Translations under genes and position numbers: made by a program
Notes under the pieces: generated by a model
What the model saw: the letters and a program-made list of their open reading frames with translations, nothing else
Databases searched by the model: none
Told to the model about the DNA's origin: nothing
Part shown: piece after piece, positions 1 through 33,756 of the stretch
Layout of the letters: every line of letters starts with the position of its first letter
Numbering within the stretch: position 1 is the first letter of the stretch
Assembly (NCBI GenBank): GCA_001939945.1
Contig: MOEB01000001.1
Span: forward strand, 265,595 to 329,594
DNA length: 64,000 nucleotides
From: Aerophototrophica crusticola
GTDB lineage: Bacteria > Pseudomonadota > Alphaproteobacteria > Azospirillales > Azospirillaceae
Direction of reading: 5' to 3'

Positions 1-80
1 CGGGCCAGTTCCCCCACCGCCTCCGCCAGCAGCCGGCGGTCGGCGCCGGTGACGTCAAGCAGCCTGCGAAGCTTGCGCAT
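1..80 (-). CDS. Lasso peptide B2 protein (transglutaminase-like leader peptidase), N-terminal fragment
   Basis: Reading leftward from the ATG at 80, 26 residues are visible before the window ends, beginning MRKLRRLLDVTGADRRLLAE. A basic, leucine-rich start with an RRLL-E pattern is typical of the N-terminus of lasso B2 proteins (transglutaminase-like cysteine proteases that cut the leader from the precursor). The start lies 26 bp inside the preceding PqqD-like gene, which ends at 55, as expected for translationally coupled B1-B2 pairs. The catalytic Cys-His-Asp region is outside the window, so the call rests on this short segment and on the neighbours. Confidence 0.6.
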   Translation of the reverse strand, partial: MRKLRRLLDVTGADRRLLAEAVGELA

Positions 81-363
81 GGTCGGCCCGGACAAGGTTG
101 TCCCGCTGCAGGCGCCCCAGGAAGGCCAGGGTGTCGGCCCGGCAAATCTCCCGCTCCACGGCATAGGCGGTGCAGAGTTCCTCACACAAGTCCGCGACGC
201 GGCGCGGCGTTTCCAGCCGCGCCCAGATGTCGGCGCCCAGCGGGTTCAGCACGAAATAGGTGCCCGTCTCCACATCCATCAGGGCCTTCTGGTTGCCCCC
301 GATGTCGGCCATAACCAGGCCGGCGCACTGCGCCACGACGGTATCCAGATCCATCGCCGCCAT
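55..363 (-). CDS. PqqD-family protein (lasso B1 / RiPP recognition element)
   Basis: A 102-residue protein of the PqqD fold. Such small proteins bind the leader of a ribosomal peptide and hand it to the modifying enzyme; in split-B lasso systems this is the B1 protein. Visible hallmarks are an N-terminal beta region with ALMDVETGTYFVLNPLGADI (about residues 27-46), followed by W-ARL and a helical part with VADLCEELCTAY and the conserved D-LAFL-RL end (about 77-86). The ATG at 363 is preceded by GGGGGAG at good spacing. It overlaps the B2 start by 26 bp and is divergent from the cyclase gene. The same fold also appears as the B domain of other RiPP systems; the adjacent B2, cyclase and kinase favour the lasso type. 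Confidence 0.85.
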   Translation of the reverse strand: MAAMDLDTVVAQCAGLVMADIGGNQKALMDVETGTYFVLNPLGADIWARLETPRRVADLCEELCTAYAVEREICRADTLAFLGRLQRDNLVRADHAQASQAA

Positions 364-698
364 TCAGGACTCCCCCATGATCGTTCCGCGTGCTCTACCC
401 TTCCCAAGAAGCGAGGTGGGTGCATCGCAGTATTTCTGGCCTGACAGTGGTACCGGTGACCTTCATGGGTCCAGAGGCGAGGCGAATTACTCCGCCTGAG
501 AGATGCCGCAGCGCGAAAGCTGCCATACCCAGCGCCCCTGTCTTCTGCATCATCTTCGCGAAGGCACGAGGAGCCTCCCCCGCCTGGGGCCATTCTTCTT
601 TCCCAGGCTTTGCGGCGGTCTGACCGAAAAATCGGGTTATTGGGTCGCCGGAAGGGGTGGGGTCGCGGGCCGGGGCACCTGGATCGGGGGTAGCGGAC
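364..698. other. Divergent intergenic region of the lasso-type cassette
   Basis: These 335 bases separate the leftward B1/B2 genes from the rightward cyclase gene and should hold both promoters. The sequence is less GC-rich than its flanks. No standard -35/-10 pair stands out. A lasso precursor gene would be expected near here. The best short frames are 52 codons on the minus strand (395-553) and 40 codons on the plus strand (377-499). Both could be read as leader plus core, but neither has a good ribosome site or the usual threonine two residues before the core, so neither is called as a gene. Confidence 0.6.
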
Positions 699-2651
699 AT
701 GGCAACCATCAGCGGGACGGTCGGCACCAGCTTCGCCGCAAGGGACCGGGCCGATGCCGACCGGGGAGGGGTGGGGTTATCGGGATTAGGGGGTGCGTGG
801 CGCTCATCCCAGGCGGAGCTTCGCGCCGTGGTGGAACCCCTCCTGCCGGCGGAAAGCCTTGAGCGGCAACCGGTCACTGGAGGCGGCGGGCGTTTCGTGC
901 TGGTGGCCGACGCCTGGTTGACGGAACGGGGGGACCTGCGGGGCGCGTTGGGCATCCCGCGGGAGCAACCCCTGTCGGACTCCGCCCTGATCATGCGGGC
1001 GTTTGAGCGATGGAAGGAGGATTGCGTCCACCACCTGTCCGGCGCCTTCGCCTTCGCCGTATGGGACACGTCCGACCGCACCCTGTTCTGCGCCCGCGAC
1101 CCGTCGGGCCGGCGGCCCCTCTTCTATGCCCGGCTGCCCCAAGGGTTTGCCTTCGCCTCCTCCGTCCGGCAGCTGCTCGACATTCCGGGGGTCCGTCGTG
1201 ACCTGGACCTGGAGCGGGTGGCGGGACAGCTTGCCCATCTGGTGGCAGACCACGAGGGCACCTATTTCAGCCACATCCGCCGCCTGCCGCCGGCCCACCG
1301 GCTGACCTTCGGCCCCGGCGGGTCGGCGCAGCCCCGCCGGTACTGGTCCGCGCAGGACATGAAGATGCTGCGCTTCGCCGACCGGGACGAATATGCCCGC
1401 GAGCTGCGCCGCGTGCTGGACGATGTGGTGGGGGAGTTCGCCTCCGCCCCCAGCCCGCTGGGCATCAAGCTGTCGGGCGGGCTGGACAGCTCCTCCCTCG
1501 CCTGCCTGCTGGCGCGGACCTTGGACCGGTCGGGGCGGCGGCTGGCCGCCTTCTCCTCCGTCCTGCCGGAGGACCATGTGGGGCCGGAGGAGGATGAGCG
1601 GCCCTACATGGAAATGGTGGTGGCCCAGGAGCGGAACATCGACCTGACCTATGTCACGGGCGGCGACGCCTCGCCGCTGGACCGGTTGGGGGACAGCATC
1701 GACATCCTGGCGGCCCCGCCGCGCAATGCCTTCGACTACATGAATTTCCGGCTCTGGGCCGAGGTGAAGCGGCAGGGGGTGAGCCTGCTGATGGACGGGT
1801 TCGGGGGCGATGCCTTCGCGTCCTACCAGCACCCCGCCTATTTCCTGCAACTCCTGGCGTCCGGGCGGCTGTTGACCCTGGACCGGGAGATGAAGCTGCT
1901 GGCCCGCTCCTACCGCATGCGGCGCAAGGACCTGGTCAAGCACGTGCTGGCGCCCCTTGTGCCCGATAGCTGGATGCGCTCGAACCAGCGGCTGAACAAC
2001 GGGGACCCGGCGCGTTTGCTGGAACTGTCGTCCATCCACCCGGACTTCGCCCGACGGCAACGGGTCCTGGAGCGGCTGGCCGTGCAGCAGAAGCCGCTGG
2101 CCTGGCACAAGCGCTGGAGCCTGAAGGCCCGCCAGTACGAGGAGCTGGCCGCCCCCACCCTGTTCATGACGCAGGAGGAGGTGACGGCCATCGCCACCGC
2201 CCATGGCATCCGCCCGGTCAGCCCCTTCCTGGACCTGCGGGTGGCGCAGGTCAGCCTGTCCGCCCCCATCGACGCCATCCACCGGGACGGCTACGGGCGG
2301 CGGCTGTTGCGCGACGCCATGGCCGACCTGCTGCCGCCGCCCATCCGCTGGCGGGTCAGCAAGGGTGCCTTCACCCCCGACTTCCACCGCCGAGTGGCCC
2401 GGGACCGGCAGCGATTCGCCGCGGAGTTCGAACGGCTGGAGAAGGTGCCCGAGGTGGCCGCCATGCTGGACATCCCCAAGCTGAAGGCCGCCCTGGCGGA
2501 GACGCCGGACGGGGTGAGCTACAATGGCTGGGACCTGCGCACCCAGATGGTGCTGACGACGGGCCACCGTGTGGCCCGGTTCCTGGAATGGGCCGCTTCC
2601 CTGCCGCCGGCCGCCTCGGCACCCCAGCCCGTGGCCATGGGGGCGGAGTGA
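699..2651 (+). CDS. Asparagine synthase-like lasso peptide cyclase
   Basis: About 650 residues. The C-terminal half is an ATP-pyrophosphatase of the asparagine synthetase B type, with SGGLDSSS at about residues 259-266. In lasso systems (McjC family) it adenylates the Asp/Glu side chain so that it closes onto residue 1. The N-terminal part (about 20-200) keeps the glutaminase-like fold (LSGAFAFAVWD, RDPSGRRPLFYAR), but the protein does not begin with the catalytic Cys of true asparagine synthetases, as is usual for lasso cyclases. The ATG at 699 is preceded by GGGGG; a GTG at 657 is in frame, but its 14 extra residues look like non-coding sequence. Its stop overlaps the next gene by one base. 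Related amidotransferases occur in exopolysaccharide loci, so the lasso assignment depends on the B1/B2/kinase neighbours. Confidence 0.8.
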   Translation: MATISGTVGTSFAARDRADADRGGVGLSGLGGAWRSSQAELRAVVEPLLPAESLERQPVTGGGGRFVLVADAWLTERGDLRGALGIPREQPLSDSALIMRAFERWKEDCVHHLSGAFAFAVWDTSDRTLFCARDPSGRRPLFYARLPQGFAFASSVRQLLDIPGVRRDLDLERVAGQLAHLVADHEGTYFSHIRRLPPAHRLTFGPGGSAQPRRYWSAQDMKMLRFADRDEYARELRRVLDDVVGEFASAPSPLGIKLSGGLDSSSLACLLARTLDRSGRRLAAFSSVLPEDHVGPEEDERPYMEMVVAQERNIDLTYVTGGDASPLDRLGDSIDILAAPPRNAFDYMNFRLWAEVKRQGVSLLMDGFGGDAFASYQHPAYFLQLLASGRLLTLDREMKLLARSYRMRRKDLVKHVLAPLVPDSWMRSNQRLNNGDPARLLELSSIHPDFARRQRVLERLAVQQKPLAWHKRWSLKARQYEELAAPTLFMTQEEVTAIATAHGIRPVSPFLDLRVAQVSLSAPIDAIHRDGYGRRLLRDAMADLLPPPIRWRVSKGAFTPDFHRRVARDRQRFAAEFERLEKVPEVAAMLDIPKLKAALAETPDGVSYNGWDLRTQMVLTTGHRVARFLEWAASLPPAASAPQPVAMGAE

Positions 2652-3592
2652 TGCGGCACTACCATTTCTCCGGCCTGACCGTCGCCTCGGCCCTGGACCT
2701 GTCGGAACTGGCCTCCGTACCCGCCCCGCCGGGCGGTGCCGACGCCAGCGTGCTGCTGGGGGAGGTGCCGGACATCCCGGACAGCGACCCGGCCCAATCC
2801 TATGTGCAGTTCACCGACGCCGGCCTGCTGCTGACCGTGCCTGATGTGGCCCGGTTCCTTGTCAGCGGCGGGCGGACCATCACCGTGCAGCCCATCGGCC
2901 GGGCTGACCCGGCGGCGGTGCGGCTGTACCTGCTGGGCTCGGCCTTCGGGGCGCTGTACCACCAGCGCGGCCTGCTGCCCCTGCATGCAGGGTCGGTAGA
3001 GATCGATGGCATGGCCATCGGCTTCGTGGGGGAGAGCGGGGCGGGCAAGACCACCATGTCCGCCTGGATGGCCGCGCGGGGCTATAGGCTGGTGTCCGAC
3101 GACGTCTGTGTCACGCGGCCCCGGCCCGGGCGCCCGCCGCTGGCCTTCCCGGCCTATCCCAGGGCGAAGCTGTGCCTGGACGCCCTTGCCGCCTTGGGCC
3201 CCGCCTTCGGGGAGGAGGCGGTGGCGGCGGCCGAGCTGCTGCCGGAGATGGACAAGGCGGACCTGCGCGTGCCCCTGTCCGCCGCCCGCGACGGGCTGCC
3301 CCTGGTGGCGATCTATGCGCTGGAAGTGGCGCCGGACGGCACCGCGCCGCGGTTGGAACCGGTGCCGCCGGCGGAGGCCCTGCGGGTGCTGCTGGCCAAC
3401 ACCTATCGTGGCCACTTCGTCAGGGGGGCGGCGGAGCAGGCCCGGCGCTTCGCCGTGTGCGGCGAGGCGGCCCGGCATGTGGCGGTGCGCCGCCTGGTCC
3501 GGCCCAAATCCTTCGACCTGCTGCCGGCCGTGGCAGAGCTGGTGGAACGGGATGTGGCGCGGCTCGGGGCGACCGCCACCGTGGATGCCTGA
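2651..3592 (+). CDS. HPr kinase-like protein of lasso/RiPP cassette
   Basis: 313 residues with the HPr kinase/phosphorylase C-domain. The Walker A loop GESGAGKTT is at 127-135, preceded by the usual LLPLHAGSVEIDG strand and followed by the LVSDDVCV aspartate pair. It lacks the N-terminal regulatory domain of true HprK. Such stand-alone kinases recur in lasso clusters; in the paeninodin group one phosphorylates the last residue of the precursor. Its ATG overlaps the cyclase TGA, so the two are translationally coupled. A role in phosphorylating a peptide is inferred; a link to the nearby polysaccharide genes cannot be excluded. Confidence 0.75.
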   Translation: MRHYHFSGLTVASALDLSELASVPAPPGGADASVLLGEVPDIPDSDPAQSYVQFTDAGLLLTVPDVARFLVSGGRTITVQPIGRADPAAVRLYLLGSAFGALYHQRGLLPLHAGSVEIDGMAIGFVGESGAGKTTMSAWMAARGYRLVSDDVCVTRPRPGRPPLAFPAYPRAKLCLDALAALGPAFGEEAVAAAELLPEMDKADLRVPLSAARDGLPLVAIYALEVAPDGTAPRLEPVPPAEALRVLLANTYRGHFVRGAAEQARRFAVCGEAARHVAVRRLVRPKSFDLLPAVAELVERDVARLGATATVDA

Positions 3593-3612: not shown

Positions 3613-5721
3613 ATGAGACCCCGCCCCGAAAGCCGACGGGCCGTGGCCTGGGGCTTGGCCCTGGCGCTCCTCTCCGGCAGTGCCATGGCGGACGTACGGC
3701 TGGAGACGGGCCGGTTCGGCAACGTCTTCGCCCCGGGGGAGGAGGGGACGGTGCGGGTGCTGACCGACGCGCCGTCCTTTACCTGGACCCTCACGGACTT
3801 CGACGGCAAGACGGTGGACTCCGGCCAGGGCAAGGCCCAGGGCGGCGCGGCCGCCTTGCCCCGGCGCTGGCAGGTGCCGGGCTATTATGAGCTGGCGGTG
3901 GAGGCGGGGGGCCAGACCGCCACCACCAGCCTCGCCGTCGTGCCAAAGCCGGAAGGCAAGGGGCCGGCCCGCTTCGGGGTGATGACCCACTTCGCCCAGG
4001 GCTGGGAGACGGACATCGTGCCGCTGATCGCCCGGCTGGGCGTCAACCATGTGCGGGATGAGCTGTACTGGGCCCAGGTGGAGAAGGAAAAGGGCCGCTA
4101 CGCCGTGCCCGACCGCTACCGTGCCTATATGCAGGCCCTGGGTGCCGCCGGGATCACGCCCCTGGTGGTGCTGAGCTTCGAGAACAAGCATTACGACGAC
4201 GGCCAGACGCCCCACACGGCGGCGGGGCACCGGGGATTCGCCAATTACGCCCGCTTCTTGGCCCAGACCTTCCGCGGCCAGGTGCCGGCGGTGGAGGTGT
4301 GGAACGAGTACAATGGCAGCTTCTGCAAGGGCCCGTGCAAGCAGGACCGCCCCGGTACCTACGTGGCCATGCTGGCGGAGACCTACCGCACCCTGAAGGC
4401 GGACCGGCCGGACCTGGTCGTGGCCGGCGGGGCGGCGGTGCTGCTGCCCCAGCCCTGGTTCCAGGCCCTGTTCGACAAGGGCGCCCTGGACAACATGGAT
4501 GCCGTGGCCATCCACCCCTACCGCCCCATACCAGAGGGGCTGGAGGATGACCTGGAGGTGTTGCAGCGGCAGATCCGCGACGCCAACGGTGGCCGGCCCA
4601 AACCCGTCTGGGCGACGGAGGTGGGGCGGCGGGACCCCAGCCCCCAGGGGCGCCACAACGCCGCCCGCTACATGGTGAAGATCAGCGCCATCCTGCTGAC
4701 CGGCGGGGTGGATCGGGTCTATTGGTACTTGCTGCGCGACTATGACAAGTTCGGCGGCATGGGGCTGGTCCGCTCCGCCGACGACCCCATGGGCATGTAC
4801 GCCCCGGCCCCCACCTACCCGGCCTATGCAACGCTGGTTGCCAAGCTGGGCACGGCGGAGCCGATGGGCCGGGTCAAGACGGACCCCCGGACCCGCCTGT
4901 ACCGATTCGACGCCGGCGGCGCGGCGCGACACGTGGCCTGGTCCTCCGACGGGCCGTCGGTGCTGGAGGCGGAGGCCTCGGGTCCCCTGACCCTCACGAC
5001 CCCCGTGGGCGCCACGACACAGGTGCAGCCCAAGGGCGGCAGGGTCACCCTGACCCTGGACGAGACGCCGGTCTATATCGATGGCCCGTTGGGCGCGGTA
5101 AAGGAACCTGGGCGGAAGCCGCTGCTGGCCGACAGCCGGCTGGATTTCGCCGGCAGCCAGGGGGCCAAGGGCTGGACCTACACCACCCTGGCCGTGGCCC
5201 CGCCCGACGCGGCAGGGCAGCCGGCGGCCCTGGCGGCAAAGGCCGATGGCAACCTGGACCCGGCCTGCCCCCTGCCGGAAGGCCGCGCCGACATCGCTGC
5301 CCGGCGCGCCGCGGAAAGCGACCCGCTGGAATGGAAGGCCAATGAGTGGAGCACCACCTGGCGGGGCAAGGTGCCCTTCCTGGAGGTGACGCCCCAGGGC
5401 GGGCATCCCGGCGTCACCAAGGGCCAGCAGGTCTGGGTGGTGCGCAACTGGACGGCGGAGACCGGCGGGCCGGTGCTGCTGAAAGGTCGCGCCAATCGCT
5501 CCTCCAGCCGGGGCGACGGCACCTGCGCCTTGATGCTGCTGGACGGGAAGCCGGTCTGGTCCGCGTTGCTGGGTGGGGAGGGGCGCCCCGGCCAGGCCCG
5601 CTTCAGCGTGCCGGAGACGCTGAAGCCGGGCACGACCCTGACCCTCGCCATCACCCCCGGCCCGGGGCTGGACGTGAACAATGACAGCACCAGCTTCGAG
5701 GTGCAGGTGGAGGCGCGGTAG
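3613..5721 (+). CDS. Secreted PslG/GH39-like glycoside hydrolase
   Basis: 702 residues. An N-terminal signal peptide (RR, hydrophobic LALALLSGSAMA, cut near residue 25) sends it to the periplasm or outside. A beta-sandwich region comes first (about 26-115). The clan GH-A barrel follows (about 120-440), with the acid/base Glu in VEVWNEYNG (E232) and the nucleophile Glu in VWATEVGRR (E336). A C-terminal beta-sandwich completes it. The barrel resembles PslG of Pseudomonas, a polysaccharide hydrolase of the Psl operon, so trimming of the polymer made by this locus is likely. The ATG at 3613 has AAGGAG nine bases upstream; earlier in-frame starts lie inside the kinase gene. It is closely related in layout to the RTX-bearing protein at 31042. 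Confidence 0.75.
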   Translation: MRPRPESRRAVAWGLALALLSGSAMADVRLETGRFGNVFAPGEEGTVRVLTDAPSFTWTLTDFDGKTVDSGQGKAQGGAAALPRRWQVPGYYELAVEAGGQTATTSLAVVPKPEGKGPARFGVMTHFAQGWETDIVPLIARLGVNHVRDELYWAQVEKEKGRYAVPDRYRAYMQALGAAGITPLVVLSFENKHYDDGQTPHTAAGHRGFANYARFLAQTFRGQVPAVEVWNEYNGSFCKGPCKQDRPGTYVAMLAETYRTLKADRPDLVVAGGAAVLLPQPWFQALFDKGALDNMDAVAIHPYRPIPEGLEDDLEVLQRQIRDANGGRPKPVWATEVGRRDPSPQGRHNAARYMVKISAILLTGGVDRVYWYLLRDYDKFGGMGLVRSADDPMGMYAPAPTYPAYATLVAKLGTAEPMGRVKTDPRTRLYRFDAGGAARHVAWSSDGPSVLEAEASGPLTLTTPVGATTQVQPKGGRVTLTLDETPVYIDGPLGAVKEPGRKPLLADSRLDFAGSQGAKGWTYTTLAVAPPDAAGQPAALAAKADGNLDPACPLPEGRADIAARRAAESDPLEWKANEWSTTWRGKVPFLEVTPQGGHPGVTKGQQVWVVRNWTAETGGPVLLKGRANRSSSRGDGTCALMLLDGKPVWSALLGGEGRPGQARFSVPETLKPGTTLTLAITPGPGLDVNNDSTSFEVQVEAR

Positions 5722-15098: not shown

Positions 15099-16682
15099 AT
15101 GGTCGCCAACCACATCGACGCCCTGCTCGGCCCCGACATGACCCAATGGAACAAAGGTTCCGTCGGGGTGGCCACCAACCTGACCTACACCTTCCTCCAG
15201 AAACTCCCGACCTACTATTCCCGCCTCGTCCGCGAAAAGGATGGCTTCAAGCCCTATACGGACGCCCAAGAGGCGGCCATGAAGAAGATCCTGGCTGCCT
15301 ATTCGAGCGTGGCCAAGGTCAGCTTCACCGAGAAGACGCAGTCCGGCACGGCCGAAGGCGATGTCGGCAAGCTGGCCTTCGGCAACGCCTACAATTCCGG
15401 CATGAGCGGCTGGGGCTACCCGCCCTCGTCCACGGTCGGCGGCGATGTGTGGATCAGCACCGCCAAGACCGGTTGGGACAACCCCGTCGCCGGCCAGAAG
15501 CCCTATTGGGTGATGATGCATGAGCTGGGCCACGCCCTGGGCCTGAAGCATCCGGGACCTTACGACGTCGCCGGGGGTAAGGAGGACGGGCCGTTCCTGC
15601 CGTCTTCCACGGACAACCAGCAATACACGGTCATGGCCTACGACATGCACCCCACCATGGGGTCCGTCCGGCCGCAGACCCTGCAGCTCTATGACATCGC
15701 CGCCCTGCAGCACCTGTACGGCGCCAACATGTCGTACAAGACCGGCAACGACGTGTACAAGCTGGCCGGCTTGAAGGACTACGTCGCCACCTTCTGGGAC
15801 GCCGGCGGCACCGACACCTTCGACGCCACCGGGGAAACCCGGTCCGCCACCATCAACCTGAACGAGGGCGCCTTCAGCTCCGTCGGGGCGAAGGGCAGCA
15901 CCGCCGCGGTGAACAACATCGCCGTGGCCTTCGGTGCCAAGATCGAGAATGCCAATGGCGGCAATGCCGGCGACAAGCTGGTCGGCAACGCGCTGAACAA
16001 CGTCCTGCGGGGCAATGGTGGCGACGACACCATCACCGGCGGGGCGGGCAACGACACCATCGACGGCGGCACCGGGACCGACACGGCCACCTACAAGGGC
16101 AACCTCAGCGGCTTCAAGTTCGCCATGGATGGCGGCACGCTGGTGATGACCAGCACGCTGGACGGCACGGACCGGGTGGTGAACGTGGAGAAGTTCGTCT
16201 TCTCCGACACGACCAAGAGCTGGGCCGACCTGGTGGCCCGGGCCGGCGGCGCCACGGCCGCCCCGCCGCCGCCGCCTTCGACCAGCCCGGACCCCGGCAC
16301 GGTGGCCGGGAAGACCGTCCAGGGCACCAGCGGATCCGACAAGCTGTACGGCAGCAACGGCGCGGACAAGTTCATCGGCGGGGCGGGCAACGACCTGCTC
16401 TACTCCGCCAAGGACGGGGTGGCTGACACCTTCGTCTTCGCCAAGGGCAGCGGCGCCGACCGCATCTTCAACTTCGAGGCCGGCATCGACAAGCTGGACC
16501 TGCGCGGCTACGGCGTGGACAGCCTGTCCGACAGCGGGATCAAGGTCAGCCAGGGCAGCAGCGGGGCCGTGCTGGACATGGGCGACGGCAACCGGGTGGT
16601 GCTGAACGGCGTGAAGACCGTGGACCTGGTGGGGTCCAAGATGTTCGTTTCCGCCGACGGGCTGGAGTATATCGGCGCCTGA
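15099..16682 (+). CDS. Serralysin-like RTX metalloprotease (peptidase M10)
   Basis: 527 residues. The zinc site HELGHALGLKH is at about 141-151 and the Met-turn VMAYDMH lies some 35 residues later, so this is an M10B metzincin. RTX calcium-binding repeats follow (GGNGGDDTITGGAGNDTIDG, about 307-326), then a proline-rich linker, and a second short RTX/beta-roll module (GTSGSDKLYGSNGADKF onward) with the DKLDLRGYG end typical of type I secretion substrates. There is no N-terminal signal peptide, which fits export by a TolC-type type I system; no such system is in the window. The ATG at 15099 has AGAGG upstream; the in-frame ATG at 15054 lacks a ribosome site. A terminator follows. Confidence 0.88.
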   Translation: MVANHIDALLGPDMTQWNKGSVGVATNLTYTFLQKLPTYYSRLVREKDGFKPYTDAQEAAMKKILAAYSSVAKVSFTEKTQSGTAEGDVGKLAFGNAYNSGMSGWGYPPSSTVGGDVWISTAKTGWDNPVAGQKPYWVMMHELGHALGLKHPGPYDVAGGKEDGPFLPSSTDNQQYTVMAYDMHPTMGSVRPQTLQLYDIAALQHLYGANMSYKTGNDVYKLAGLKDYVATFWDAGGTDTFDATGETRSATINLNEGAFSSVGAKGSTAAVNNIAVAFGAKIENANGGNAGDKLVGNALNNVLRGNGGDDTITGGAGNDTIDGGTGTDTATYKGNLSGFKFAMDGGTLVMTSTLDGTDRVVNVEKFVFSDTTKSWADLVARAGGATAAPPPPPSTSPDPGTVAGKTVQGTSGSDKLYGSNGADKFIGGAGNDLLYSAKDGVADTFVFAKGSGADRIFNFEAGIDKLDLRGYGVDSLSDSGIKVSQGSSGAVLDMGDGNRVVLNGVKTVDLVGSKMFVSADGLEYIGA

Positions 16683-19858: not shown

Positions 19859-20938
19859 GTGCTGGGTGACAACAGCCTTTCCTTTGTCCTGTGCGCGCAC
19901 AATGCCCGTGACCGCATCGGCGACTGCCTGTCGCACCTCTCCCGGCAGCGCCTGATTGTGGGCCAGGGCTATGAAGTGGTGCTGGTGGACAACGGTTCCA
20001 CCGACGGTACCGCCGACCTCGCCCGGCAAGTCTGGCAGCGTGAAGGGGCGACGGCGCCCCTGCGCGTCGTGCCGGAGCCGCGGCTCGGGCTCGTGCATGC
20101 CCGCCTGACCGGGATCCGCGCCGCCCGGCACGAGGTGCTGAGCTTCGTGGACGACGATACCTGGATGGCACCGGACTGGGTCGCCACGGCCCTGCGCACC
20201 ATGGAAGAGCACCCGACGGTCGGCTTGGTCGGGGCGGAAGGGGAGGCACGCTTCCCCGCGGACGGCGGCCCCCCCTGGTTCCAGCGCTTCCGCCACGGCT
20301 ATGCGGTGGGGCCGCAGGGACCGGCTGGCGGCGGGCCCGTTCCCCTGGGGGACATCTTCTACGGTGCCGGGCTGACGGTGCGCCGGTCGGCGGTGCTGTC
20401 GCTGCTTGACCGTGGCTTCACCCCCCTGTTGACAGGGCGCACGGGGGCCGGGCTGGCCTCCGGCGAGGATGCGGAGCTGTGCCTCGCCCTGGTGGCCGAC
20501 GGCTGGGACACCTGGTTCCAGCCAAGCCTGCGTTTCCAGCACCTGATGACGCCGAGGCGCCTCACGGAGGGCTATCTGGAGGGCCTGTTCTATGAGCTTG
20601 GCCGCTCCGTCCCGCTGATCGAGACCTATCGCCAGGTGATCTGGCAGCGGCAGGGCAAGGGGTTGAAGGCGCTGTGGCGCAGCCCCGTGCCCCGCGTGCT
20701 GGCCGCCACCGCCAAGCTGGGCAAGCGGCGGCTGGCGCGGATGGGGGCCACCAGCCCGGCCGATGTCCTGTCGGCCCGCATCTCCGCCGCGTTCTTCCGC
20801 GGGCAGCTCCGCGCCTACGGCGGGTACTGGTCGCAGGGACCGGCCCTGCGCCGCTCCATCCGGTCATGGCTGGACAACCCGGCCCAGGGCACCGACCATG
20901 ACCCTGCCCGGTACGAGACCCATGCCCGCGCGGGTTGA
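19859..20938 (+). CDS. Family 2 glycosyltransferase
   Basis: 359 residues with a GT-A fold: SFVLCAHNARDRIGDCLSHL at about 8-27, VVLVDNGSTDGTADLA at about 40-55, FVDDDTWMAPDWV at about 98-110, then GAGLTVRRSAV and SGEDAELCLAL. It starts with GTG at 19859 after GGGGGAG. It opens a tightly spaced rightward run: the ABC transporter gene begins within its last 41 bases. It is similar in pattern to the transferase at 18610. The specific linkage it makes is unknown. Confidence 0.86.
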   Translation: MLGDNSLSFVLCAHNARDRIGDCLSHLSRQRLIVGQGYEVVLVDNGSTDGTADLARQVWQREGATAPLRVVPEPRLGLVHARLTGIRAARHEVLSFVDDDTWMAPDWVATALRTMEEHPTVGLVGAEGEARFPADGGPPWFQRFRHGYAVGPQGPAGGGPVPLGDIFYGAGLTVRRSAVLSLLDRGFTPLLTGRTGAGLASGEDAELCLALVADGWDTWFQPSLRFQHLMTPRRLTEGYLEGLFYELGRSVPLIETYRQVIWQRQGKGLKALWRSPVPRVLAATAKLGKRRLARMGATSPADVLSARISAAFFRGQLRAYGGYWSQGPALRRSIRSWLDNPAQGTDHDPARYETHARAG

Positions 20939-22748
20939 CCCGCCCCCACGCCGGGGCCTGCGCGCCCTGTGGTCCCTGGCCGCACGCTGGCCGGGGCCGC
21001 TGGCCGCCGTCATCGGGCTGGGTATCCTGTCATCGCTGTTCGAGGGGATCGGGCTTTCCCTGTTCATCCCGCTGCTGCACAGCTTCGCCGACGCGCCCCT
21101 GCCGGTGGGCGGCGACCTGGTGGGGCGGCTGGCGGCCCTGGGCCAGGGCATCCCGGAAGACTGGCGGATGCCGGCCATCGTCCTGGCCATCTTCGGCTGC
21201 ATCTGCCTGAAGTCCCTGCTGCAATATGCCGGGTCCACGGCTGCCTCCTGGCTGGCGGGGCAGGCCGGGCACAGGCTGCGCAGCCAGCTTTTCCACCGCT
21301 TCCTGGGCATGAGCCAGGCCTGCTTCGAGGGCCAGCGCTCCAGCACCCTGATGAACGGGCTGGCGACGGAGACCTGGAGCGCCACCCGCGCCCTGTCGGT
21401 GCTGCTGGCGGCCATCGCCAATGTCTGCACCATCCTGCTGTTCGTCGCCCTGCTGCTGGCCATCAACTGGCGGGCCACCCTGGTGGTGGCCGGGGCGTTG
21501 GGGGGCATCGCCCTGCTGGTGCATCTGGTGACACGCCGGGCCCGGCGGCTGAGCGCGGCGGGGGTGGCGGCCAACAAGGCCTTTGCCGACCGCATGTGGG
21601 AGGCGCTGGGCGGCATGCGGGTGATCCGCGCCTTCGGCCAGGAGGAGCGGGAGGCGGAGCGCTTCGCCGCCGCGTCGGAGCGGGTACGCCACAGCTTCTT
21701 CCGCATGGAGCGGATGACGGCCCTGGCGTCGCCCTTGTTCGAGAGCCTGTCGGCCCTGCTGGTCCTGGGCATGCTGGCGGCGCTGCTGGTGCAGGACCGC
21801 GGCGCCTTGCCCTCCATGGCGGCCTTCGCGCTGATCCTCTACCGCCTGCAGCCGCAGGTGCGCCAACTGATCGCCCACCGCACGGCCCTGTCCACCCTGG
21901 CGGGCCCGGTGGCGGAGGTGTTCGGCCTGCTGCACCCGGCGGAGCGGGACGTGATCCGCGGCGGGACCGGGGTCCCAGGCCCGCTCACCCGCGGCGTGGC
22001 GTTCGACCGGGTCACCTTCGGCTATGGGGAGGGGGAGCCGGCCCTGCGGGAGGCCAGCTTCACCATCCCGGCGGGCAAGGTCACCGCCGTGGTCGGCCCG
22101 TCCGGCGCGGGGAAAAGCACCGTGGCCGGGCTGCTCTGCCGCTTCTTCGACCCGCAGGACGGCACCATCCTGGTGGACGGCACGCCGTTGCCTGCCCTGG
22201 ACCTGCGCGCCTGGCGGCGGCGCATCGGGGTGGTGGCCCAGGACGTGGTGCTGTTCAGCGGCACGGTCCACGACAACATCGCCTATGGCCGCCCCGACGC
22301 CACGCGGGCGGAGGTGGAGCAGGCCGCCCGGATGGCCCAGGCCGACGGCTTCATCGCCGCCCTGCCGCAGGGCTTTGACACGCCCCTGGGCGACCGGGCC
22401 ATGCGGCTGTCCGGCGGGCAGCGCCAGCGTATCGCGCTGGCCCGCGCCATGCTGTGCCAACCGGACGTCCTGCTGCTGGACGAGGCCACCGCAGCCCTGG
22501 ACAGCCGTGCCGAGCATCTGGTGCGGGAGGCGCTGGAGACCTTCCGCCAGGGCCGGACCGTGCTGGTCATCACCCACCGGTTGGACAGCCTGGCGCTGGC
22601 CGACCACATCGTCGTGCTGGACCAGGGACGGGTGGTGGAGCAGGGGGCCTATGCCACCCTGCTGGCCCGCCGCGGCCTGTTCGCCCAGCTCCACGCCTAT
22701 CAGGAGCGCCCCGCCCAAGCGGCCGGCGCCCGCCAGACCGCGGGATAG
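20898..22748 (+). CDS. ABC transporter, fused membrane and ATPase domains (MsbA-like exporter)
   Basis: 616 residues. The type IV exporter membrane domain has about six helices (about 30-320). The nucleotide-binding domain has Walker A GPSGAGKS (about 405-412), signature LSGGQRQR (about 504-511), Walker B VLLLDEATAALDS and the H-loop ITHR. Half-transporters of this type work as homodimers and export lipids, lipid-linked sugars or peptides. Here it is embedded among glycosyltransferases and could flip a glycolipid; export of a lasso peptide is a less likely alternative given the 17 kb distance. I chose the ATG at 20898; 20922 is also possible. Confidence 0.88.
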   Translation: MTLPGTRPMPARVDPPPRRGLRALWSLAARWPGPLAAVIGLGILSSLFEGIGLSLFIPLLHSFADAPLPVGGDLVGRLAALGQGIPEDWRMPAIVLAIFGCICLKSLLQYAGSTAASWLAGQAGHRLRSQLFHRFLGMSQACFEGQRSSTLMNGLATETWSATRALSVLLAAIANVCTILLFVALLLAINWRATLVVAGALGGIALLVHLVTRRARRLSAAGVAANKAFADRMWEALGGMRVIRAFGQEEREAERFAAASERVRHSFFRMERMTALASPLFESLSALLVLGMLAALLVQDRGALPSMAAFALILYRLQPQVRQLIAHRTALSTLAGPVAEVFGLLHPAERDVIRGGTGVPGPLTRGVAFDRVTFGYGEGEPALREASFTIPAGKVTAVVGPSGAGKSTVAGLLCRFFDPQDGTILVDGTPLPALDLRAWRRRIGVVAQDVVLFSGTVHDNIAYGRPDATRAEVEQAARMAQADGFIAALPQGFDTPLGDRAMRLSGGQRQRIALARAMLCQPDVLLLDEATAALDSRAEHLVREALETFRQGRTVLVITHRLDSLALADHIVVLDQGRVVEQGAYATLLARRGLFAQLHAYQERPAQAAGARQTAG

Positions 22749-31041: not shown

Positions 31042-33756
31042 ATGAAGTTGGGGGTCCAGACGCATTTCGCCCATGGCTGGAATACAAGCCTTCTCGACAC
31101 AATCAAGTCACTGGGCATTAACCATATCAGGGACGAGCAGCAATGGGCCAATTGGGAGCCGGTGAAGGGGACTTACTCACCCTCCTGGATGTCCACCCAA
31201 TACATGGCAAAGGCAAAGGCGGTCGGCGTCCAGCCCCTCGTCCAGCTCGTATTCGGCAACAAGAACTATGATGGCGGTCACGCGCCCTATACGGAGGAGG
31301 GGCGTCAGGGTTACGTGAACTATGCATTGGCCATGCTCGACCGCTATGGCGGCCAAGTGAAGCAGGTGGAGATCTGGAACGAATACAATGGTGGGACCTT
31401 CGTAACTGGCCCAGCCACCCAGGATCGCATCTTCTATTACACGGAGATGTTGAAGGACGTCTACACGGCCATCAAGGCCAAATATCCCGACGTCCAGGTG
31501 GTGGGCGCCTCCACCGTGCGCATCCCGCTGCCCTACCTGGAGAAGCTGTTCCAGGCCGGGGCACTGAATTACATGGACGCGGTCAGCGTGCACCCCTACC
31601 GCCCCACGCCCGAGGGGGTGGATGAGGAGGTATATGCCCTGCGCGCGCTGATGCGGAAGTACGGCGGGGAGAAGCCGATCATCGCCACCGAATATGGGAA
31701 GAAGGTGGACGACGTGGCCGACAGCCCGGCCTATCTGGTGAAGATGACCACGCTCATGGCGTCCTCCGGCGTGGACGCGGCTTACTGGTACGTGTTCAAG
31801 GACCACCCGGGCTATGAGCGGATGGGCCTGTTCGACGAGCAGATGAATCCCCACCCGGCCCTGGCCGCCCACCAGTTCCTGCTGAAGAACATGGGGGAAA
31901 GCTACACGCCTGTGCGCACGGACGTGGCTGGGCCGCGCATCCAGGCCTTCAAGGTGGCGCCCGACATGCATGTGGTCTGGGGCCTGGACCAGAATGTGAG
32001 GTTCGACGGCAGCCGGACCCTGTATGACGCCCGCGGCACGGTGCTGGCGGACGTGCTGAAGATCAGCGACCAGCCGGTCTATGTGCGGGGCGACTTCCAG
32101 GTGAAGCTGGACAAGTCCCAGGTCGCGGCTGACACGCTGGCGGACTACAACACGGGCAAGTGGGCCTATTTCGCCCGCTCGGCCGGGACCGGCAAGCTGA
32201 CACCCCTGTCCGAGCAGGTGCCGGACCCCAACGGTTGGGACATCCATATCGGCATCAGCAGCAACCCGTTCCTGACCGTGGGCCGGGACAACATGATCAC
32301 GGGCTGGAGCGGCGCGCAGGCCATGCAGCGCTACGTGGCCACCGAGGACGGGATGGTGCGGCTGGATGGGGAATGGTCCATCGCCAACAACCGCAGCACC
32401 GGCGTGAAGGCCATCATCATGGTCAACGGCACGTCGGTCTGGTCGTCCAACGTCTATTACGGCACGGACGTGACCCTTCGTAACAAGGTGCTGACCCTCA
32501 AGGCGGGGGACAGGGTGGACGTGATCCTGGACCCCGCGGGCTCCAGCGACTTCGACAACACCAAGGTCCATGTGCGCCTGACCTACACCGGCCCGCTGGG
32601 CACGGCAGAGGAGGTCTTCGCCAGGTACAACGTGGTCTATGCCGCGGCCGCCCTGGACGGGCGGGTGTTCGGCACGGCGGCCAAGGACGTGCTGGTGGGT
32701 TCCGCCGTGGCGGACCTGTCCAGCACCCGGGACGGGTTGCAGGACGTGTTCGTGGCATCCAAGGGTACCAACCTGACCGTACGGAACTATGAGGCCGGGA
32801 TCGACAAGCTGGACCTGGGCCACTGGGGCTTGGCGGACCCGACGGGGCTGCTGTTCAGCCGCGCCAACGGCAACCTGGTGGTCAGCGGCACGGGCGGCAG
32901 CGTCACCCTGGTGGGGGCCGCGGCGCTGACGGACGCGCAGGTGAAGGCGGACCTGCTGTTGGACCCGGTGCTGCATTACCTGGACGTGCCGGTGCGCTAC
33001 GTGCCGCCGGTGACGATTCCCACGGCGCCGACCCTCAACACCATCCTCGGGACCAGCGCCGGCAACAGCCTGTCCGGTACCGCGGCGGGGGACCTGATGC
33101 AGGGGCTGGCCGGCAACGACACGCTGAAGGGCCTGGGCGGCAACGACCGGCTGGAGGGCGGCGACGGCAATGACAGGCTCTATGGCGGGGCGGGGGACGA
33201 CACGCTCATCGGCGGGGCGGGAACCGACAACGCCGACTTCCGCACCGCCACCACGGGCGTGCGCGTGGATTTGGCCGCCGGTATCGCGACGGGGGAGGGG
33301 AGCGACACCCTGTCCGGGATCGAGAACGTCACGGGCTCCAACCATGCCGACACCCTCATCGGCGACGGGCTGCGCAACAGCCTGTGGGGCGGCAAGGGTA
33401 ACGACGCGATCTTCGGGGCCGGGGACAACGACAAGCTCTACGGCCAGGACGGTGACGACAGCCTGGACGGCGGTGCCGGCAACGATTGGCTGGAAGGGGG
33501 GCTGGGCAACGACACCCTGACCGGCGGCAGCGGGGCCGACATCTTCCGCTTCGCCAAGGGCTGGGGCCTGGACACCATCACCGACTTCACCCAAGGGTCC
33601 GACAAGATCGACCTGCGCGGGTTGGGGCTGGGCTTCGCGGGGCTCTCCTTCACCGACACGGCGGAGGGGCTTCTGGTGGGCACGGCCTTTGGGCAGGTGA
33701 TGCTGCTGGGGCTGGACCTGGGGGGCGTGTCGGCGACGGACTTCAAGTTCGTGTGA
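31042..33756 (+). CDS. PslG/GH39-like glycoside hydrolase with C-terminal RTX repeats
   Basis: 904 residues and no signal peptide. The clan GH-A barrel starts at once ([20 protein letters not shown]) and carries the acid/base Glu in [10 protein letters not shown] (E114) and the nucleophile Glu in [10 protein letters not shown] (E217). A beta-sandwich similar to that of the hydrolase at 3613 spans about 370-520. A module with [14 protein letters not shown] follows (about 585-600), shared with the RTX protease at 15099. Calcium-binding nonapeptide repeats run from about 668 ([20 protein letters not shown]) to about 840, ending in a DKIDLRGLG segment. Secretion by a type I system is expected. 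It probably cleaves the cluster's own polysaccharide outside the cell; the bond cut is unknown. Confidence 0.82.

Follow-up and report, generated by a model that had tools for sequence, protein, structure and literature searches.

At the left end of the 64,000-nucleotide stretch of Aerophototrophica crusticola DNA analysed here (the window; G000:C1:265595-329594, where the parent contig coordinate equals the window coordinate + 265594), genes resembling those for lasso peptides directly adjoin an exopolysaccharide (EPS) cluster, which raises the question of whether they form a complete lasso system and whether its product is tied to the polysaccharide. The preliminary description had taken B1, the start of B2, a cyclase and an HPr-kinase-like gene for a split-B lasso system lacking a visible precursor; B2 ran off the window, and the precursor, a short gene with a YxxPx-like leader, was suspected further left. 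Reading the parent genome leftward (G000:C1:250595-270594) revealed that the lasso gene set straddles the left edge of the window, with B2, A, N and D lying beyond it. The four genes stood, B2 is completed to 148 aa, and the precursor is missing from the window only, being present in the genome just to its left. Judging from gene content and the precursor, with every enzymatic step assigned from characterised homologues, we conclude that the locus is a complete lasso peptide cluster of the split-B, paeninodin/pseudomycoidin type in an alphaproteobacterium (probability about 0.93). Its features and those of its surroundings are as follows, with negative coordinates lying to the left of the window.

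-3831 to -1999, minus strand: D, putative ABC exporter, 610 aa (PF00005, PF00664)
-1995 to -844, minus strand: N, PF14907 nucleotidyltransferase (E 3e-49)
-805 to -777, minus strand: second terminator-like hairpin, between A and N (z -5.5; 12 G-C pairs plus T5)
-709 to -569, minus strand: candidate precursor A, 46 codons, MTESKMAWARPDYEKIDLIGTE and GSSLPNSDDGQTANNAFPNPGGAS on the two sides of the predicted cut
-415 to -386, minus strand: terminator-like hairpin between B2 and A (z -5.4)
-366 to 80, minus strand: B2, predicted lasso leader peptidase, 148 aa, of which only 1 to 80 lies inside the window
55 to 363, minus strand: B1, PqqD-like RiPP recognition element, predicted to bind the leader (PF05402, NF033536)
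657 to 2651, plus strand: C, predicted lasso macrolactam cyclase, asparagine-synthetase-like (NF033535, PF00733)
2651 to 3592, plus strand: K, HPr-kinase-like putative precursor kinase (TIGR04352, PF07475, motif residues)
3613 to 5721, plus strand: GH, exported glycosidase-like protein (PF11790, E 9e-4; PDB 5jvk, E 4e-15)
5798 to 27383: EPS cluster, outside the lasso cluster (Pfam matches)

Leftward from B1, the order is thus B2, hairpin, A, hairpin, N and D, all on the minus strand, and this B1-B2-A-N-D series diverges from C-K on the plus strand. The C stop and the K start overlap as TGATG, and GH begins 20 bases after K with an AAAGGAG site ahead of its ATG; because of this overlap and this short gap, C-K-GH looks like one operon. 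The start of N was chosen by alignment with its counterpart in a congener, G007.

The lasso assignment draws support from B2, which passes the lasso-specific model NF033537 (lasso_biosyn_B2; 87.7 bits, cut-off 33), also matches PF13471 and carries Cys83 and His122. For B1, PF05402 is matched above its cut-off (E 6e-19), and the best NCBIfam match is NF033536 (lasso_PqqD; E 9e-18), at 64 bits below the strict cut-off of 80. Likewise, the best NCBIfam family for C is the lasso cyclase NF033535 (E 1e-97), whose 328 bits fall below the curated cut-off of 525 and thereby mark C as divergent; C has an SGGLDSS loop at residue 273. The scores of C and B1, both short of the curated lasso cut-offs, weigh against the assignment, as does the fact that K fits only general HprK families, and weakly: its best NCBIfam match is TIGR04352 (HprK_rel_A; E 8e-10), and PF07475 (E 3.5e-5) is below cut-off. 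The match to TIGR04352 might suggest a different RiPP or asparagine-synthase pathway, such as an HPr-rel-A/PqqD_rel_X system, in place of a lasso pathway. However, K reaches 38 bits where TIGR04352 requires 200, and PqqD_rel_X reaches 20 where 35 is required; with B2 passing the lasso model and a lasso-like precursor in the leftward sequence, we regard this reading as extremely improbable. K also carries the residues H112, K133, D150 and D151, an H-K-D-D set said to be catalytic in paeninodin kinases (PMC9266682).

The precursor is a 46-residue product encoded between B2 and N, 569-709 bases left of the window. It combines a W-x-x-P leader (aromatic-x-x-P, in keeping with the YxxPx-like leader anticipated), Thr at -2, Gly1, Asp8 and a C-terminal Ser, a pattern found once in 26 kb versus 0.03 times in first-order Markov shuffles. 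Within the window, the B1-C intergenic region (364-656) yielded only spurious-looking frames when searched for a precursor. At many further lasso loci of the family that carry a kinase (for example, L060, L062, L063, L067, L072, L073 and L097), the precursor likewise has W-x-x-P and ends in Ser.

When C was searched against 145 relatives, one close homologue was found, in G007 (50% identity), and a class-wide search with a two-row C alignment detected no close homologue outside the genus in that sample; the adjacency can therefore be tested closely in one congener only. G007 carries the whole set, with GH-K-C facing B1-B2-A-N-D (B1, N and D homologues 49%, 47% and 56% identical, respectively). 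Its precursor, MQHTQKSLWIDPSFEKINLIGTEGADQPNSDGQPGADNAFPNPDPLS, occupies the same position and is 61% identical over 38 aa (E 1e-11). The F/Y/W-x-x-P pattern and leader core, Thr(-2), Gly1, Asp8, an NAFPNP stretch and the last Ser are all kept, and this homologue at the same spot, in which Gly1, Asp8, Thr(-2) and the C-terminal Ser match those of A exactly, supports the lasso assignment. Asp9 is also present in the core of A, so that a Gly1-Asp9 ring is possible from the sequence, but only Asp8 is common to the G007 precursor. A second lasso cluster in G007, K-B1-B2-C (L018 8763-10736, G007:C23), has a predicted 2690-aa open reading frame on the other strand to its right. A scan of genome contigs with C gave one remote match only. 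In the window genome itself, at least three further kinase-bearing lasso-like loci are present, on contigs C15 (L044), C24 (L045) and C295 (L043); among their candidate precursors with a terminal Ser are L043 5984-6151 (minus strand) and L045 4272-4430 (plus strand).

In the pathway that we propose, B1 would bind the leader of the precursor, K would phosphorylate its C-terminal Ser, B2 would cleave after ...GTE, and C would join Gly1 to Asp8, closing an 8-residue ring around the tail, where both ring size and cut site are derived from motifs. N would probably add a sugar (or a nucleotide) to the phospho-Ser, and D would export the product. For kinases of this type, the target is the C-terminal Ser of the precursor, and in pseudomycoidin PsmK phosphorylates this residue before PsmN hexosylates the phospho-Ser (reviewed in PMC9266682); this precedent and the H-K-D-D residues of K suggest a product of the phosphorylated type. 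N is likened to PsmN by description. Across 385 sampled genomes of the class, PF14907 occurs in 75 but lasso B2 in no more than 33, which makes it likely that many PF14907 genes have a function unconnected with lasso peptides.

The kind of cluster is already known; the predicted core sequence is new. The paeninodin cluster of Paenibacillus dendritiformis (A, C, K, B1, B2, D) shares the split B1/B2, an HPr-kinase-like K with H-K-D-D and the C-terminal Ser of the precursor, whereas the present cluster is alphaproteobacterial, has divergent C and K proteins, places B1-B2-A-N-D divergently from C-K, includes the additional N and lies beside an EPS locus. The pseudomycoidin cluster of Bacillus pseudomycoides (psmA, C, K, B1, B2, D, N) has the same gene content, including an annotated nucleotidyltransferase that there installs a hexose on phospho-Ser, but differs in phylum, gene order and core sequence. 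A proteobacterial kinase acting on the C-terminal Ser of a lasso precursor is described for SyanK/SyanA of Sphingobium yanoikuyae (PMC9266682), which we liken to K by description. The paeninodin-like and LPP clusters of Bacilli that are embedded in capsule loci resemble ours in a kinase and an NTP transferase, described as typical modification enzymes of the paeninodin-like ones, in an MsbA-like exporter and in a polysaccharide neighbourhood (PMC13381572), whereas in the present cluster, from another phylum, no second RRE was seen and no signal peptidase was among the genes read.

The polysaccharide cluster next door, as previously described, is real: over about 5.8-27.4 kb, Pfam matches identify GT2, GT4, Wzx, a sugar transferase, Wzc, ManC, an ABC transporter and a methyltransferase. 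Two RTX-repeat proteins are encoded in and beside it (15099-16682 and 31045-33756), the latter bearing a glycosidase-like domain 41% identical to GH (3613-5721), and a second ABC transporter in the cluster (20922-22748) is about 34% identical to the lasso exporter homologue of G007. We considered GH as a member of the lasso pathway and rejected it: its relatives elsewhere sit in EPS loci without lasso genes, which identifies GH as an EPS-locus gene. Since the precursor ends in a Ser that such kinases modify, no glycan substrate is needed to explain any gene, and the earlier suggestion that the tailoring enzymes act on something glycan-linked is unsupported. The best explanation is that the EPS genes make up a Wzx-type polysaccharide locus of their own, within which the lasso block is placed.

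Whether this setting has a function is a question apart, because a functional tie and a chance neighbourhood are both compatible with the lasso assignment. The lasso product might work on or with the polysaccharide, its phospho-Ser tail, glycosylated by N, being EPS-linked or drawing on the same sugar donors, or the peptide might be a matrix or biofilm component, with the C-K-GH operon tying the two together. In favour of this, the lasso and GH block of G007 has been inverted with respect to the EPS genes, with D and not GH facing GT2-GT4-Wzx, yet it still lies within the EPS locus, borders the same EPS genes and keeps C-K-GH adjacent, and close homologues of C and of GH each occur in one of ten congeners, G007 in both cases. 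Moreover, a single open frame in G007 (L016 6960-10289, G007:C41) covers both K and GH, joined by a membrane-like or signal-anchor-like linker. This linker holds a run of seven G, where one base more or less would undo the frame and give GH back its own start; the frame may be a fusion or an artefact of a single base. According to a 2026 paper on Bacilli (PMC13381572), paeninodin-like clusters are often located inside capsule loci there, the role of these peptides being stated as unknown, and one strain up-regulated a lasso gene along with an EPS gene. However, GH belongs with the EPS genes, and the two congeners represent a single evolutionary event. On balance, we consider such a tie unlikely. 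Its fullest form, a phosphorylated, N-modified lasso peptide joined through its phospho-Ser tail to the EPS or sharing its sugar donors, with EPS locus and lasso block forming one pathway for a peptide-bearing matrix and the G007 frame a true kinase/glycosidase fusion across the membrane, appears to us very improbable.

A survey of 58 lasso loci beyond those of the window and G007, taking in some 10 kb of flank on either side as far as the contig reached, bears on the same question. Because a codon-based caller missed some genes in other genomes, six-frame comparison was used instead. EPS markers, found with BLAST/HMM seeds from this window that can miss distant EPS genes, lay within 10 kb of 5/15 loci with K and N, 3/27 with K only and 2/16 with neither, several loci being shortened by contig ends. 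The markers are thus commoner near K+N loci than near K-only loci, as a functional tie would have it, but the majority of lasso loci with a kinase, whether or not N is present, lack such a marker, and a linkage of EPS with N is not established (5/15 with N vs 5/43 without; Fisher p = 0.11; 58 loci). Hence the attachment to the EPS locus, and its conservation in relatives, holds physically here and in G007, but most related lasso clusters lie away from polysaccharide genes; the adjacency is real in these two genomes and is not general. It is probable that two accessory modules came to share one variable region by chance, and that the peptide acts as an antimicrobial or a signal with no bearing on the glycan; only 2/11 genomes of the genus have the cluster, and the other kinase lasso-like loci of the window genome (C15, C24 and C295) are free of EPS markers. 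The link having outlived the inversion in G007, with C-K-GH intact, speaks against pure coincidence. We therefore regard the EPS genes as mostly, perhaps not wholly, just neighbours of the lasso cluster, and consider it possible that the lasso peptide is joined to the glycan or acts on it.

The present locus provides a specific predicted precursor for an alphaproteobacterial lasso peptide that would be phosphorylated and possibly glycosylated. It also extends to a second phylum an unexplained trend, the location of paeninodin-like clusters within polysaccharide loci. With the C-K-glycosidase arrangement conserved in a two-species pair, a role of the peptide in the matrix becomes directly testable by knockout.
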